This document shows positions 4,677 to 24,932 of a stretch of DNA of 24,932 nucleotides, one piece after another; position 1 is the stretch's first letter; every line of letters starts with the position of its first letter. The notes beneath the pieces were generated by a model. That model had not been told where the DNA came from, made no database searches, and was given only the letters and a program-made list of their open reading frames with translations. Both the position numbers and the translations under genes were made by a program. Origin of the DNA: a virus; IMG/VR virus record IMGVR_UViG_3300027801_001462, positions 1 through 24,932 of that record, one strand, 5' to 3'.

Positions 4677-4976
4677 ATGCAAAAACGTACCAAAAGTTTA
4701 TTAGAAGAATTAAGTTCAATGCCACTTAAACGTGACAAAGAAGATGTGGTTGAAAGCAGAGCCTCACACATACTTGAGTCAGCGATTAGACTGCTTACAT
4801 ACATCAGAGAAAACTTTGACCAAGACACAGCATTTAAACTAGAAAAAAGATTCAACAGTGCAATAAAAAATATGGATGCATCCAAGTTCAGCAGAGGTGT
4901 TGCACGTATCAAAGAGAACAAAGACGTCAAAGAAAACGTACTAAAAATCAAAGACGGCGAATACAAAGAGGACTAA
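4677..4976 (+). CDS. Small helical protein of unknown function
   Basis: This is a 99-residue, highly charged protein, almost all helical by composition (LLEELSSMPLKRDKED, ASHILESAIRLLTYIRENF, ending in a Lys/Asp-rich tail). It has no signal peptide, membrane segment or catalytic motif. It follows a late promoter box and its stop overlaps the next start by one base (TAATG), so it is translated with the amidinotransferase. I do not recognise it. The lack of Cys and His argues against a metal site. Confidence 0.7.
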   Translation: MQKRTKSLLEELSSMPLKRDKEDVVESRASHILESAIRLLTYIRENFDQDTAFKLEKRFNSAIKNMDASKFSRGVARIKENKDVKENVLKIKDGEYKED

Positions 4977-6031
4977 TGTCTGAAAAGATAAAGGTCTCGA
5001 CACACTCACCATTCCAAAAACTTACAGCAGTAGCAATAGGACAAAGCCTGTCAGAGGATGTGTTTGATTGGATCACTGAAGAAAAAATAAAAGCACCCAT
5101 GCAAAAGATACTTCGTGAAACAAACGAAGACATGGCAGAGTTTAAAAGAGTATTAGAAAGTCTAGGAGTTAAAGTGTTTCAGCCTGCACCATTGCAAAAA
5201 GAAACACTCACAAACAAAGATGAGGTACCTCATGTGCCTTTACAGCCACGTGATATATTTTTAACAATAGGTAACACCTGTTATCAACAAAACACCAACG
5301 GTGTGTATGATTACATGAAAGACTTTGTACACGAAGACTGTCTTGTAGATTTGTTTAATGAGGTGTATGGTCCAGGTGGTGCATCCTTCGAAGGACATGA
5401 ATTAATATCTGGGGCTAACAGCATCAAACTAGGCAAACATATCATTATGCCTGCAGACGGCGAAGAAGGGTTTGTACATCCAGACAGACCCATGTTCAAT
5501 CATATAGTAGACAAATGGAAACAGCAAGGCTACGAAATAGTACAAACAGACGAAGTAGGACACACAGACGGCATCATAAGTTTTATTAAACCAGGAGCAT
5601 TCATGAGGGTAGGAAAGTCTCCTCCACAGGAAAAAGAATTACTTGCAAAATGGGATAGACTAGAACTAGGTGAACAGGGGTCGATACTCTTAAGCAAATC
5701 AAAATGGACGCAGGAAAAGAATATGATTAATGGTAGATGGTGGATCGACGGAGAGCAAGATAATCCACAACTGCATAAATTTATTAACGACTGGTGCGAT
5801 CACTGGGTTGGCTATTGTGCAGAAACAGTGTTTGACATAAACACACTTGGTGTATCTGAAGAGTGTATGCTGGTATCATCATACAACAAAGAAGTGTTTG
5901 ACTTCTTGAAGAAACACAAAGTAGAACCTATCATAGTACCATTGAGGCACAGATATTTTTGGGATGGTGGGTTGCACTGTTGTTCTGTGGATCTTGTGCG
6001 TGAAGGAGATAGGGAAGATTATATATCATGA
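4976..6031 (+). CDS. Amidinotransferase / guanidino-group-modifying pentein enzyme
   Basis: The 351-residue protein fits the amidinotransferase branch of the pentein superfamily, whose members act on arginine or guanidino compounds through a covalent Cys-thiouronium intermediate. Visible motifs are PRD-IFLTIGN (Arg92-Asp93, substrate carboxylate/guanidine region), GHTDG (His196, general acid-base), and GGLHCCSVDLVRE near the C-terminus, where Cys335 aligns with the catalytic cysteine of the usual GG-x-HC motif. The length suits glycine amidinotransferase-like enzymes. The upstream AGAGGA is a plausible ribosome site. The start overlaps the small gene before it and the stop overlaps the next gene (ATGA). 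Whether it transfers an amidino group or deiminates cannot be decided. Confidence 0.85.
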   Translation: MSEKIKVSTHSPFQKLTAVAIGQSLSEDVFDWITEEKIKAPMQKILRETNEDMAEFKRVLESLGVKVFQPAPLQKETLTNKDEVPHVPLQPRDIFLTIGNTCYQQNTNGVYDYMKDFVHEDCLVDLFNEVYGPGGASFEGHELISGANSIKLGKHIIMPADGEEGFVHPDRPMFNHIVDKWKQQGYEIVQTDEVGHTDGIISFIKPGAFMRVGKSPPQEKELLAKWDRLELGEQGSILLSKSKWTQEKNMINGRWWIDGEQDNPQLHKFINDWCDHWVGYCAETVFDINTLGVSEECMLVSSYNKEVFDFLKKHKVEPIIVPLRHRYFWDGGLHCCSVDLVREGDREDYIS

Positions 6032-13532: not shown

Positions 13533-14831
13533 TTACAAGTCTTTTACGATATCAAATATTTGGGGATAAATGGTTGCCCATTTGGTAGATCTTCTACGAT
13601 CTAATTCGTCTAGATATATCTTAAATTGTTTTTGTCGTTTTGGGCTAGGTTCTCTTTGGTCAAACTCTTGCATAATGCTCTGCATATAATTTTTGTAAAT
13701 TACTTTCACTGAATCAGGATGTCCATGGGAGGTTGTGTCAAACAGCTCAACTGCTTCACGCAGTCCCCAGTCGTTGATCTTCTTGCCAAATATTCCAGGG
13801 TACATGTATTCCCTAGGACCTATCTCATGTTGGTTGGCTTTCATCATGCTCCAATAGATGGGTTTGATCTTGCTACATTCATTTATGTACCTGACCATAG
13901 CAGGCATGCCCGGAACTGCTGTTACTGTTAGAGCACTGTTAATACCTTGTTCAAATGATGTGTTGTGTAAAATGTATTCAAAGTTTTTTAGTGCCACATT
14001 TAAATCCAACCCAGTACGCACATACTCACCCTCTGGACCCAGTGCATCACAGCTGAAGAATATCTGTATCTTGTCCAGCCTTCCAGACTTCTGTAATACA
14101 TCTAACCTGTCCATCCACTTTTTAAATCGTTCATGTTCTATGTTATGATTGCTAAAGAAAACAAGGGTAAGATCAGGATAGTTACCTTTCTCTAGGAACT
14201 CTATAAACCTAAATGTTTCCTTCTGTAGGAATGGTTCTCCACCCATGACAAATATCTTGTGTAAATCTTGTAAATGATTTTCAAACCATTTGAACAGTAA
14301 TTCTGTATGCTCTTCTATCTTAGGATTTTTCTTCCACCAATCATTTATTTTTACACCCTCTTTTTTAAAATCTCCAAATCTTTTTTCTTCCTGCTGTATG
14401 GTTGAGCTGTAATGAGCTCCGCAGTATATACATGCCTGTTGACAAGTGTTTCCCCAATACACTTCTAGCTGTCTTGGAGTAACATCCACTGCTTCTAGAT
14501 CTGTGTCTAGTTCAGGTGGTGCTGTGGTGCCTTCTAATTTTAAATGAGTGTGTCTGTCTGATCTTCCACCTGCTTCTTCTATGTGTTTGCAGTGTTCACA
14601 CCCCCTGCCTGGCCACTCGCCTTTCAACATCTTGCGTCTTGCTTCTAGCTTGGCTGGTATGTTGTGGAAGTTAAGTTCTCCATTACGCACTTCTAATGGA
14701 TCACCCATTACCCTGTGGCAACTCGCACTGACTCCATCAGTCAAATAGACTGTGCTGTGTGTCCATTTCAACTGACAAGGTAAACCCTTGGTAATTGGAA
14801 ACAGTTTTGGTGGTTGCTTTGATATGCCCAT
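13533..14831 (-). CDS. Radical SAM protein (twitch/SPASM-like cysteine set)
   Basis: The 432-residue enzyme has the radical SAM cluster motif Cys130-x3-Cys134-x2-Cys137 (NTCQQACIYCGAHYS), the SAM-amino-group motif GGEP (about residues 197-200) preceded by FVM, and later strands fitting a partial TIM barrel (LTVTAVPGM, YWSMMKANQHEIG). Upstream of the barrel lies a second cysteine set: Cys19, Cys38 and Cys78-x2-Cys81 (GCEHCKHIEEAGGRSDR). It resembles the auxiliary Fe-S binding twitch/SPASM domain but is N-terminal. The substrate is unknown; peptide or glycan modification is possible. It is a single reverse gene, divergent from the nuclease at 14844 with a 12-bp gap, and end-to-end with the forward gene at 13182. 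Confidence 0.88.
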   Translation of the reverse strand: MGISKQPPKLFPITKGLPCQLKWTHSTVYLTDGVSASCHRVMGDPLEVRNGELNFHNIPAKLEARRKMLKGEWPGRGCEHCKHIEEAGGRSDRHTHLKLEGTTAPPELDTDLEAVDVTPRQLEVYWGNTCQQACIYCGAHYSSTIQQEEKRFGDFKKEGVKINDWWKKNPKIEEHTELLFKWFENHLQDLHKIFVMGGEPFLQKETFRFIEFLEKGNYPDLTLVFFSNHNIEHERFKKWMDRLDVLQKSGRLDKIQIFFSCDALGPEGEYVRTGLDLNVALKNFEYILHNTSFEQGINSALTVTAVPGMPAMVRYINECSKIKPIYWSMMKANQHEIGPREYMYPGIFGKKINDWGLREAVELFDTTSHGHPDSVKVIYKNYMQSIMQEFDQREPSPKRQKQFKIYLDELDRRRSTKWATIYPQIFDIVKDL

Positions 14832-21896: not shown

Positions 21897-23108
21897 ATGA
21901 CAGTTAACAAAGGTCTAACATCACTTATAGATTCGGATCCTAACCTCAGCAATCAGGCATTGGAAAATGCAATCAACGAACTAAAGATAGGATGGGTAGT
22001 AGCATCTATAGAACTAGACACTGCTATCACAGACAACACAGTTTTAAGTACTTCACAGAAGAATGATGTAAAAAACACAATTAATAATATAGCATATCTC
22101 AATGTAGGACGTTACCTGAATGATATGATACGACACACCAACACAATACTCGACGGATCTATAATGCCGTTTGACGCAAGTGTAGAAACTAAAACATTCA
22201 CATTCATAGAAGCACTGCAAACAGTAGATGCATTACAGACAACCATTCCAGATCTTTTTGGTGTGCCAGCTTCTTCAAAAAGCAGAAGCGTAAACAACCA
22301 CTTTGGCATACTAAACAACATGTTTACAGCAGTGTTCACAAGCATGAAAGAAGCAATAACATTTATCAATGCAGGTGACCTAGCACAGGACACAGAATAC
22401 CAAACAGCATTAACTGATCTAAAAAATTTTATAGCATCTGTTGTGGGCGACAGCACAGACTTTCAACAAACACTTAATACATTTGCATCAGCAGTGGCCA
22501 TGACAGCAACAGCATTTGATTCACCATTACAATTAGGTGAGTATGCTTCAAGAAGAACACAGCTCATTAGTGACAGAAACAGCATAGTGACACAACAGAC
22601 TCTAGAGAATTCTAACATAATAAGTTTGAGAACATACATAGAAACAATCACTAATAACGATGCACTTGCAGGCTTGGCCGAAAACAAAGACATGAGAGAT
22701 TTACTAACCAACGTTTCACAGAATACAACATGGCAAAAGTACTATAATGATTACGAAACTAATGTGTCGAATATAAATCCAATATATGAAATATCAACTG
22801 ACTCTGACAAGTCAAGTGTAATTAACGCAGTACTTCAATCCAGAGGACTGCCTGATGTAACTGACTATCTGGATTTTCCGGCTGTGGCTAAAAAGGCTAC
22901 ACGAGATAATAGAATCGACGTTAAAGACTATGAGTTTTATTCCATAGAACAAATCATAACAAAAAGCTGTGAACAGTTGGGAATAATAACTGCCAACAGA
23001 ATTATACAAGATCAAAGTAATACACTACTGAATAACATGAACGACAATGATAGAGCTATTGTGGCAAATGAGTTAGATCTAAATGAATCAACAAATACAT
23101 TAAGTTAA
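21897..23108 (+). CDS. Probable baseplate/virion structural protein, family not recognised
   Basis: The 403-residue protein has no Cys-rich, membrane or catalytic motifs; it is Asn/Thr/Ser-rich and helical (ALENAINELKIGWVVASIEL, NNHFGILNNMFTAVFTSMKE, ITKSCEQLGIITANRI). A weak Shine-Dalgarno (GCAGGATAACA) precedes the ATG, 2 bp after the PAAR gene. Joint transcription with the spike tip suggests a tail or baseplate part; this is inference from position only. The next gene follows after 1 bp. Confidence 0.65.
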   Translation: MTVNKGLTSLIDSDPNLSNQALENAINELKIGWVVASIELDTAITDNTVLSTSQKNDVKNTINNIAYLNVGRYLNDMIRHTNTILDGSIMPFDASVETKTFTFIEALQTVDALQTTIPDLFGVPASSKSRSVNNHFGILNNMFTAVFTSMKEAITFINAGDLAQDTEYQTALTDLKNFIASVVGDSTDFQQTLNTFASAVAMTATAFDSPLQLGEYASRRTQLISDRNSIVTQQTLENSNIISLRTYIETITNNDALAGLAENKDMRDLLTNVSQNTTWQKYYNDYETNVSNINPIYEISTDSDKSSVINAVLQSRGLPDVTDYLDFPAVAKKATRDNRIDVKDYEFYSIEQIITKSCEQLGIITANRIIQDQSNTLLNNMNDNDRAIVANELDLNESTNTLS

Positions 23109-23109
23109 C

Positions 23110-23817
23110 ATGTTTGCAGATGTAATAGGCGACTGGCCCACACATGAAAGATTTATACTAACCTCATGTGACAACAAGTACTTTGAGCAGTACTTCCCTA
23201 GATTTTACAAGACCTACAAAAAACACTGGCAGTTACCAATTCATGTACACATAATCGATCCGTCTGATGAATCAATACAAAAACTAGACAAACTAGAGTT
23301 GTCATACACGCACTGCACAACTGATCCTGCAGTTTTGAAATGGCAATACTCATATGAAACTTACTGTCAAGCACAGAGGTTTATACTGTTGGGATTCAAT
23401 TTATTAGATAATCAATCAGTGACTGTTGCAGATGTAGATTCTTATGCGTTAAAAACGCCAAACAGCACTCAGCAACAGCAATTAAGTTCTGATATGGCAT
23501 TTACTGTATATAACGGAAGATACATGGCAACCTTTTGCAACTTCCATCACAGTCGTAGAGAGCAAGCCAAACAAGCCGCAGAGAAAATGATAGACTTGTT
23601 GAAAAATACAGATACCATCGGGGTTGATCAATTGTGCATCAAACAATCTTTTAACGGATTGCCCTACAACACTCTAAAACACGGTGAGTGGATAAGACAC
23701 TATGACGTTAAGACAGAAACAGATTTACAACAGCACAATAACTGTTTGATATATCATGAAAAAGGAACTAGAGGCAAACACAAAACAGTGGAGACCACAT
23801 GGACAGATATAAAGTAA
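23110..23817 (+). CDS. Glycosyltransferase-like protein (GT-A type)
   Basis: The 235-residue protein has a GT-A-like plan: strand RFILTSCDNKYFEQYFPRF at the N-terminus, SVTVADVDSYAL around residue 112 as a candidate DxD metal/nucleotide-sugar site (DVD), GVDQLCIKQSF near residue 175, and a final IYHEKGTRGKHK with basic residues typical of diphosphate binding. The family is not certain. It overlaps the methyltransferase gene at 23799 by 19 bp, so glycosylation and methylation of one substrate are likely coupled. It comes directly after probable baseplate genes. Confidence 0.55.
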   Translation: MFADVIGDWPTHERFILTSCDNKYFEQYFPRFYKTYKKHWQLPIHVHIIDPSDESIQKLDKLELSYTHCTTDPAVLKWQYSYETYCQAQRFILLGFNLLDNQSVTVADVDSYALKTPNSTQQQQLSSDMAFTVYNGRYMATFCNFHHSRREQAKQAAEKMIDLLKNTDTIGVDQLCIKQSFNGLPYNTLKHGEWIRHYDVKTETDLQQHNNCLIYHEKGTRGKHKTVETTWTDIK

Positions 23818-24365
23818 TAGCAAAATTCGCCAAGCAAAACAACTGGAAGCAAGGGCTAGAACTGGGCGTTTGGGTAGGAGTCACTACATTCTACATGATG
23901 AGAGAAACAGATGTAAAGATGTATTGTGTTGACTCATGGGAAGAACAACCAGACAATCCAGAGTACGATTGGCAGTTCAACAAGAAACCTAGGTGGAAGG
24001 ATGGGAAACTGAAGGTTGAAGAATTCACCAACGAGAATCAAGCATGGGATCACAACAAGAACGAGCGTCATTTCAGAGACAACGCCCAACAATGGGGAGA
24101 TAGGATAACCATAATAAAAGGCAGATCACTTGCAATCATAGATCAAATACCCAATAACAGCATGGACTTTATATTCCACGATTCAGATCACTCATACCCA
24201 TTTGTTAAAAACGAGATAGAAGCTTACTTGCCCAAACTCAAATCGGGTGGCTATTCCATGGGGGACGACTATAATTGGGGTACAGTTGAGAAATCAGTTG
24301 TAGAAGCATTTGGTGAGAATCACCGAGTTACAGGCAAAGGCGTCTGGTATTCAATAAAAAATTAG
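23799..24365 (+). CDS. Class I SAM-dependent methyltransferase (Methyltransf_24-like)
   Basis: The 188-residue protein has SAM motif I at about residues 19-30 (GLELGVWVGVTT), an acidic residue after strand 2 (YCVDSWE), and the family-typical segment MDFIFHDSDHSYPFVKNEIE followed by LKSGGYSMGDDYNW. The HDSDHSY stretch fits the Methyltransf_24 group, often linked to carbohydrate or natural-product O-methylation. The middle part is Trp/Asn/Lys-rich. The gene overlaps the glycosyltransferase-like gene upstream and the reverse gene downstream (by 4 bp). This is the third methyltransferase type in the window, unrelated in detail to the pair at 1 and 3988 and to the FkbM protein. Confidence 0.82.
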   Translation: MDRYKVIAKFAKQNNWKQGLELGVWVGVTTFYMMRETDVKMYCVDSWEEQPDNPEYDWQFNKKPRWKDGKLKVEEFTNENQAWDHNKNERHFRDNAQQWGDRITIIKGRSLAIIDQIPNNSMDFIFHDSDHSYPFVKNEIEAYLPKLKSGGYSMGDDYNWGTVEKSVVEAFGENHRVTGKGVWYSIKN

Positions 24366-24565
24366 ATCTTTTCACAATCAATAACAATACTCTCAAATGG
24401 TATGTCCATTCGGATAAAAGTATCTGTCATCTCGTAGAATTTAACTCCGGCCGACTGCTCACAGACCTGTTGTGTTGGGTAAGTTTGTTTGGTGTTTTCG
24501 TAATATGTCGTACATTCCGGAACACCGTTCATCAAAATACACATAACTAGCACCATTTTAAACAT
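24362..24565 (-). CDS. Small secreted-type protein of unknown function
   Basis: The 67-residue protein begins with a short hydrophobic leader (FKMVLVMCILMNG) that looks like a signal peptide or membrane anchor, followed by a region with three cysteines (PECTTYY, QQVCEQ, VIDCEKI). An ATTAAATA box ends exactly 6 nt before the ATG at 24565, and the gene is translated away from the tmRNA. The Met at 24556 is an alternative start. An envelope-directed small phage protein is likely; function unknown. Confidence 0.65.
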   Translation of the reverse strand: MFKMVLVMCILMNGVPECTTYYENTKQTYPTQQVCEQSAGVKFYEMTDTFIRMDIPFESIVIDCEKI

Positions 24566-24578: not shown

Positions 24579-24629
24579 TCAAGTGCCCCACTTCTGTTGC
24601 AAGGCAGGGGCCGCCCCTGAAATTGTTGG

Positions 24630-24701
24630 TTATTACGCCGCTAATCTCAATTCAGAAGTGCTAACTGTTAAGTCAGCAAATCCTAATGCTTTTTTGTTTG
24701 C
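24630..24701 (-). other. tmRNA tag-peptide reading frame
   Basis: From a GCA (Ala) resume codon at 24701 the frame encodes 22 residues, starting ANKKALGF and ending ELRLAA, followed by two TAA stops (24635-24630). The Ala-Asn start and Leu-Ala-Ala end are standard for tmRNA tags that direct ClpXP-type proteolysis. At 22 residues it is longer than the E. coli tag (ANDENYALAA). Confidence 0.88.
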
Positions 24702-24789
24702 ATTTAAAACTTGGCCGTTACCTCGTTCCAACTGGATAAACTCCACATCTCTTTACACGTCCGTCGATCCTATTTCACCCCCGGAAGGG

Positions 24790-24811
24790 ATTACATAAGC
24801 CACCATGTAAT
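24790..24811 (-). other. Hairpin in the tmRNA intervening segment
   Basis: A perfect 7-bp inverted repeat (ATTACAT and ATGTAAT) with an 8-nt loop lies between the CCA end of the acceptor piece and the G-run that starts the coding piece. In permuted tmRNA genes this segment is cut out; the hairpin would present both processing sites side by side. Confidence 0.75.
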
Positions 24812-24886
24812 AAAATGGTGGAGGTGGTCGGTACTGCCCCGACGTCCGCAACGTTTATTCCAAATGCTTCAACGTCTACAATTATA

Positions 24887-24915
24887 ATTATACCTTAAGG
24901 TTGACTCTTTGTCAA
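24887..24915 (-). promoter_or_regulatory. Consensus sigma70 promoter of the tmRNA
   Basis: On the minus strand TTGACA (24915-24910) and TATAAT (24892-24887) are separated by exactly 17 bp, a perfect match to the bacterial housekeeping consensus. Transcription would start at about 24880, directly before the acceptor piece. Confidence 0.88.
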
Positions 24916-24928
24916 CAAGAAGTATAAT
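24901..24928 (+). promoter_or_regulatory. Divergent sigma70 promoter reading out of the window
   Basis: On the plus strand TTGACT (24901-24906) and TATAAT (24923-24928) are 16 bp apart. Its -35 box is one arm of the inverted repeat GTTGAC-TCTTT-GTCAAC (24900-24916), whose other arm is the -35 box of the tmRNA promoter. The transcript would begin just past the window end. Confidence 0.6.
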
Positions 24929-24932
24929 TAGA

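Follow-up and report, generated by a model that had tools for sequence, protein, structure and literature searches.

Does a marine virus, apparently of the T4 type, own a tmRNA, and with which tag would that RNA mark stalled proteins? The question is raised by the far end of the window, by which we mean the whole 24,932-nucleotide stretch of viral DNA analyzed here. A preliminary description had read at 24600-24932, on the minus strand, a complete circularly permuted ssrA gene, and had proposed an Rfam search as a check. This search returned a match to alpha_tmRNA (RF01849, cut-off of 50 bits) at 24919-24582(-) with 111.9 bits and an E value of 4.2e-30, covering all model positions from 1 to 355, and a match to tmRNA_permuted (RF04321) at 24879-24669(-) with 102.8 bits. 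ARAGORN also predicted a permuted tmRNA, at 24911-24542(-), with the tag ANKKALGFADLTVSTSELRLAA followed by two stops. The complete permuted gene was thus borne out by two Rfam models and ARAGORN, and a chance origin of its signature is excluded. The anatomy first proposed stood as well; only its boundary at 24600 was slightly short, as the 3' end lies near 24582.

Along the minus strand, the promoter (24915-24887) is followed by the acceptor piece, a spacer, and the coding piece with its 3' end near 24582. The full-length matches to RF01849 and RF04321 place the acceptor piece upstream of the coding piece, with the spacer in between. The acceptor piece (24816-24879, 5' end approximate), delimited by the Rfam alignment and by the way it covaries with the coding piece across 29 aligned sequences, has the 5' strand of P2, a T-arm with a 5-bp stem (GTCGG-GGCAGTA-CCGAC, 24843-24827), the acceptor 3' strand CACCTCC (24826-24820), A73 (24819), and an encoded CCA (24818-24816). 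The 33-nt spacer (24783-24815), whose sequence is conserved in the family, is predicted to be lost in maturation. The coding piece (24582-24782, from the end of the Rfam match and ARAGORN) opens with the acceptor 5' strand GGGGGTG (24782-24776), continues with AAATAGGATCGACGG, and holds a D-like domain, the 3' strand of P2, the tag frame, and 3' hairpins. The tag frame of 22 codons (24636-24701; ARAGORN) begins at the resume codon, encodes ANKKALGFADLTVSTSELRLAA with its AA end, and is closed by tandem stops, TAA TAA (24630-24635). Just downstream of the tmRNA and outside it lies a 67-aa open reading frame (ORF) on the same strand (24362-24565), with homologues in 22 related loci. Its N-terminus is hydrophobic and it contains Cys; it had no match in Pfam or PHROG and is possibly cotranscribed with the tmRNA.

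We scanned IMG/VR with a tmRNA pattern and separately with a tag pattern, which gave 35 tag-bearing viral contigs; together with two contigs of one SAR11-like genome, they form a tag family with the consensus AN[KTR][KR]ALGFAD[LF]T and a C-terminal [LM]RLAA. Most members have a tag of 22 residues, and two have one of 25. Conservation at residues 1-2 and 5-11 is partly built in, because the tag pattern fixes these residues and many relatives were retrieved that way. However, nine contigs were retrieved without using the tag beyond GCAAAC, and the tags in the SAR11-like genome (G391) were found by Rfam alone; therefore, the conservation is more than a retrieval effect. The frame is also constrained, with a mean dN of 0.068 and a mean dS of 0.232 (ratio of 0.29, over 66 nt only). 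Neither tblastn of the tag nor blastn of the tmRNA gave a match against 50,697 phage records. Neither the tag lineage nor its ClpX-bearing relatives (see below) were found in the literature searched, with its limited coverage, and this lineage of viruses, with its conserved tag of 22 residues, looks new.

An origin of the tag in the host was considered and rejected: none of 385 alphaproteobacterial genomes contained the tag pattern, and G391 was the sole member of the SAR11-like order to show it, on two contigs, C5 and C3, the former of which carries the window's phage genes. Most other alphaproteobacterial tags seen were short and of the ANDN type. The SAR11-like order (that of genome G323), which we take to be SAR11, has genomes mostly of 0.9 to 1.4 Mb with about 30% GC around the tmRNA. 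Its own tmRNA is likewise permuted and of the alpha type, but most members have the 10-residue tag ANDNEMALAA and a spacer of 3 to 15 nt, in contrast to the 33 nt in the window. The phage genes on C5 indicate SAR11-type hosts, in one case, and on the basis of these phage contigs inside a SAR11-like genome, such bacteria are likely hosts. The suggestion that a phage copy may bring a viral tag in place of the host's agrees with the difference between ANKKALGFADLTVSTSELRLAA and the likely host's ANDNEMALAA. The lineage thus bears on why phages carry tmRNA at all, as a long tag of their own would replace the likely host's short one.

Phage-borne permuted tmRNA as a class is already known. A two-piece tmRNA has been published for phage Melnitz and 17 of 47 related contigs, and 53 unique permuted forms, 50 of them aquatic, were reported among 18,146 phage genomes (PMC9004378). 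We also found an unannotated permuted tmRNA with the tag ANFNEYALAA in Pelagibacter phage HTVC008M (L328:47836-48177; NC_020484.1 145120-145461), and a permuted tmRNA was present in 5 of the 19 pelagimyophage-type contigs used as controls. The initial view that such a gene would be unusual in a marine T4-type virus is not supported in light of all three, and unannotated two-piece tmRNAs evidently exist in public phage genomes, HTVC008M among them. Melnitz and related pelagimyophages are marine T4-related phages that, like the window phage, have a two-piece ssrA of the alphaproteobacterial type with a promoter-like site of its own (PMC9004378). Melnitz differs, however, in its tag, ANDNYVPVDYALAA, and in its 142-nt, ORF-holding spacer, whereas in the window phage the tag is of the GFADLTV type, with 22 residues, and the spacer is 33 nt long. 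The Caulobacter-type RNA of RF01849 shares the gene order, acceptor stem, G3-U70, T-arm, P2, resume codon, AN start, and AA end, but the window gene departs from it in the T-loop GGCAGTA and the long non-ANDN tag, and it scores 111.9 bits against about 183 to 212 bits for most SAR11-like genomes.

We consider it very probable that the phage owns a functional ssrA, circularly permuted as in alphaproteobacteria, whose RNA acts in trans-translation together with SmpB from the host and adds a viral tag. Host SmpB is assumed because no SmpB was found in 14 viral contigs of the lineage, all of which may be fragments. From established tmRNA biology, we infer the steps that follow transcription of the gene as well as its expression. 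Host RNA polymerase would transcribe a single precursor from the consensus promoter, acceptor piece first; RNase P and 3' processing would cut out the 33-nt spacer and leave two RNAs joined by the acceptor stem and P2; and host AlaRS would charge the encoded CCA end via G3-U70. Host SmpB and EF-Tu would then deliver the charged tmRNA to stalled ribosomes, which would restart at GCA and append ANKKALGFADLTVSTSELRLAA to the stalled protein, and the -LAA terminus would direct the tagged product to a ClpX-type protease. In this way the phage may keep ribosomes cycling while mRNAs are broken, with the products marked by a viral and not a host tag.

The alternative that survives best is that the viral tag mainly routes or protects proteins, for instance because it evades SspB or another host adaptor, rather than sending them to degradation. 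This would fit a tag that, compared with most alphaproteobacterial ones, lacks the ANDN start and has roughly double the length. Yet the LAA end, a ClpX-type signal in other bacteria, is retained, and relatives encode ClpX, so we hold this alternative to be unlikely. Less probable again is a decoy RNA that mainly occupies host SmpB or EF-Tu and thereby blunts host trans-translation. Its model is the tag-less tmRNA-like RNA of phage DS6A, which, as cited in PMC11915505, inhibits endogenous tmRNA when expressed in Escherichia coli. The DS6A RNA has no tag, however, whereas in the window gene the tag is complete and constrained, with both the AN start and the LAA end, which makes a decoy very unlikely.

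Trans-translation with a viral tag raises the question of what reads that tag. A full-length ClpX was found in 13 of 31 virus records, comprising the window and 30 tag-family contigs (TIGR00382, 487 to 504 bits). In the contigs mapped in full, roughly 13 to 22 kb separate it from the tmRNA, in the direction that leads past the window end; Hsp20 adjoins it, and two contigs also have DnaK. Most of the ClpX-negative contigs end short of this distance, although a few may reach that far. Since the window's contig stops before the expected position, a ClpX in its own phage is predicted from the relatives. The phage ClpX is about 50% identical to SAR11-type ClpX and retains the zinc finger, the Walker motifs, the GYVG and RKH loops, and the I/MGF loop, which ClpX uses for docking on ClpP. 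Of the 15 contigs with a ClpX that shares 68% identity or more with the query, 14 carry a long-tag tmRNA; the exception is G444 (45.9 kb). No ClpX was found in Melnitz or HTVC008M, and no ClpP was found in the phage contigs by a crude, insensitive motif search.

In these related phages, the phage-encoded ClpX could read the tag, working with host ClpP. That viral tag and viral ClpX would form a private degradation channel, with viral ClpX, docked on host ClpP, reading the viral tag better than host ClpX does, is a tentative idea and rather unlikely; if true, it would put the proteolysis of stalled products under phage control. With a long viral tag and a complete ClpX and Hsp20 (and DnaK in two contigs) nearby, the question of the tag reader is therefore directly testable. 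A general link between ClpX and tmRNA in phages was rejected: outside the tag lineage, 9 of 34 ClpX-bearing contigs had a permuted tmRNA, showing no enrichment over the 5 of 19 controls. Precedents for both genes in one phage, as in the tag-lineage relatives, are the Sinorhizobium jumbo phages AP-J-162, with tmRNA and ClpX (PMC11242549), and Phosso, in which we found ClpX and a permuted tmRNA match of 113 bits (W03 349596-350198, locus L622). Both are soil jumbo phages, however, and Phosso ClpX is only about 52% identical to that of the related 93-kb contig G420.

The RNA structure and the promoter speak to whether the gene is maintained. RNAalifold of 29 sequences predicted 57 pairs, 29 of which keep the pair though both sides have changed in at least one sequence. 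P2, the pairing between the two pieces, covaries (columns 39 and 182, for example, are AU in 11 sequences, UA in 8, UG in 7, and CG in 3), and two-sided compensatory changes were seen in four of the five T-stem pairs and in two acceptor pairs. The G3-U70 pair of the 7-bp acceptor stem, noticed at the outset together with the T-arm and the encoded CCA, is present in the sequence as described, and the corresponding column pair is U-G in 29/29 aligned sequences. At the level of the alignment, this covariation is strong evidence for a functional RNA. The T-arms fall into several distinct cassettes, of the GGGGCAGTACC, TTCGAAT, and TGCAATT types, suggesting that they have been exchanged by recombination between phages.

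The promoter claimed for the gene was confirmed as a sigma-70 consensus, TTGACA-N17-TATAAT, on the minus strand (24887-24915), with the -35 box at 24915-24910 and the -10 box at 24892-24887. It matches at 12 of 12 positions and is the sole exact copy in the window, where shuffles give an expectation of 0.01. All 29 aligned sequences have TTGAC spaced 17 nt from TATAAT or TTAAAT. An opposed promoter-like site, TTGACT-N16-TATAAT (11 of 12 positions), lies on the plus strand at 24901-24928, with its -35 box overlapping that of the tmRNA. In the relatives, a conserved small divergent ORF (MPK.RIFK..DGTETKEVEAL...) starts just past the position that matches the window end. The overlapping boxes form a dyad, TTGAC-N5-GTCAA, exact in 22 of 29 sequences; it was considered as a repressor operator, an idea dropped in favor of the simpler one that the dyad arises because two back-to-back promoters share a -35 region. 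Phages frequently hold stray host genes, and the tmRNA could accordingly be a decaying or neutral passenger copy acquired from a host. The compensatory changes throughout the helices, the preserved promoter spacing and reading frame, and the spread of the family across many contigs argue against such a copy, which we regard as still less probable than a decoy.

The spacer is conserved too, with a similarity among relatives of 0.78 against about 0.6 for P2. Its ATGGTGG can pair with the CCACCAT of the acceptor end, and the resulting hairpin (24783-24822) has a predicted energy of -9.2 kcal/mol and a z score of -2.96. Though it is conserved and stable, no covariation was found for CCACCA:TGGTGG in the aligned relatives, in which its pairing columns barely vary where the motif is present. 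A short ORF of 38 to 77 aa, often with a Shine-Dalgarno-like site, lies in the spacer of permuted tmRNAs at other loci: in viral contigs (L018, L180, L081, L175, L049, L115, L161, and L116), in Melnitz (L205, 45984-46436), and in a SAR11-order genome contig (L312/L322, G392:C8). In Melnitz, L116, and some others, it continues into the coding piece. In some loci these ORFs differ mainly at third codon positions, as in 6 of the 8 differences between L018 and L180.

Ownership by the phage follows from the gene neighborhood. In the window, the tmRNA is preceded by NrdA, NrdB, PAAR, two ORFs (21897-23108 and 23110-23817), a methyltransferase (23799-24365), and the small ORF at 24362-24565. The order nrdA-nrdB-PAAR-two ORFs-methyltransferase-tmRNA recurs in about 20 viral contigs, many of which extend far past the tmRNA. 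By tblastn of the window ORFs, each tmRNA neighbor was found in 9 to 30 of the retrieved loci, many of which do not extend far enough for all neighbors to show. G420 has most of the window genes in the same order, with the tmRNA in the opposite orientation. A host ssrA fragment misassembled onto the contig end, a concern raised by a gene lying fewer than 20 bases from that end, has next to no probability, because relatives keep the same phage genes around the tmRNA in these contigs and the tag and spacer are unlike every host copy seen. On this gene order, the tmRNA is borne by the phage and is not a host fragment.

The assignment of the virus to the T4 type, as a Kyanoviridae-like marine phage, rests on NrdA/NrdB, an exonuclease, and phrog_455. 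NrdB is about 63 to 65% identical to those of cyanomyoviruses and HTVC008M, and the 465 phage records that contain the phrog_455 protein are almost exclusively from cyanophages. Homologues of the HTVC008M capsid, portal, and terminase were found neither in the window nor in five related contigs of 65 to 93 kb, all incomplete. A search with PF07068 (gp23) gave no match, nor did it in controls, and is thus uninformative.

Other genes of note were seen in the window and its relatives. The 351-aa protein encoded at 4976-6031, an unusual accessory gene product, matched no more than three phage records, and its best match (30%) is annotated as glycine amidinotransferase. A glutamine amidotransferase-like protein (Pfam GATase) at 466-1017, a 230-aa protein without an assigned family at 1089-1781, and a protein with a weak Radical_SAM match, below the Pfam cut-off, at 13533-14831 are possible parts of an accessory phage metabolism. 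The 93-kb contig G420 (L323-L327) encodes an unusually host-like set of proteins: ClpX, DnaK, Hsp20, SufB, SufC, PurF, and ThyX.
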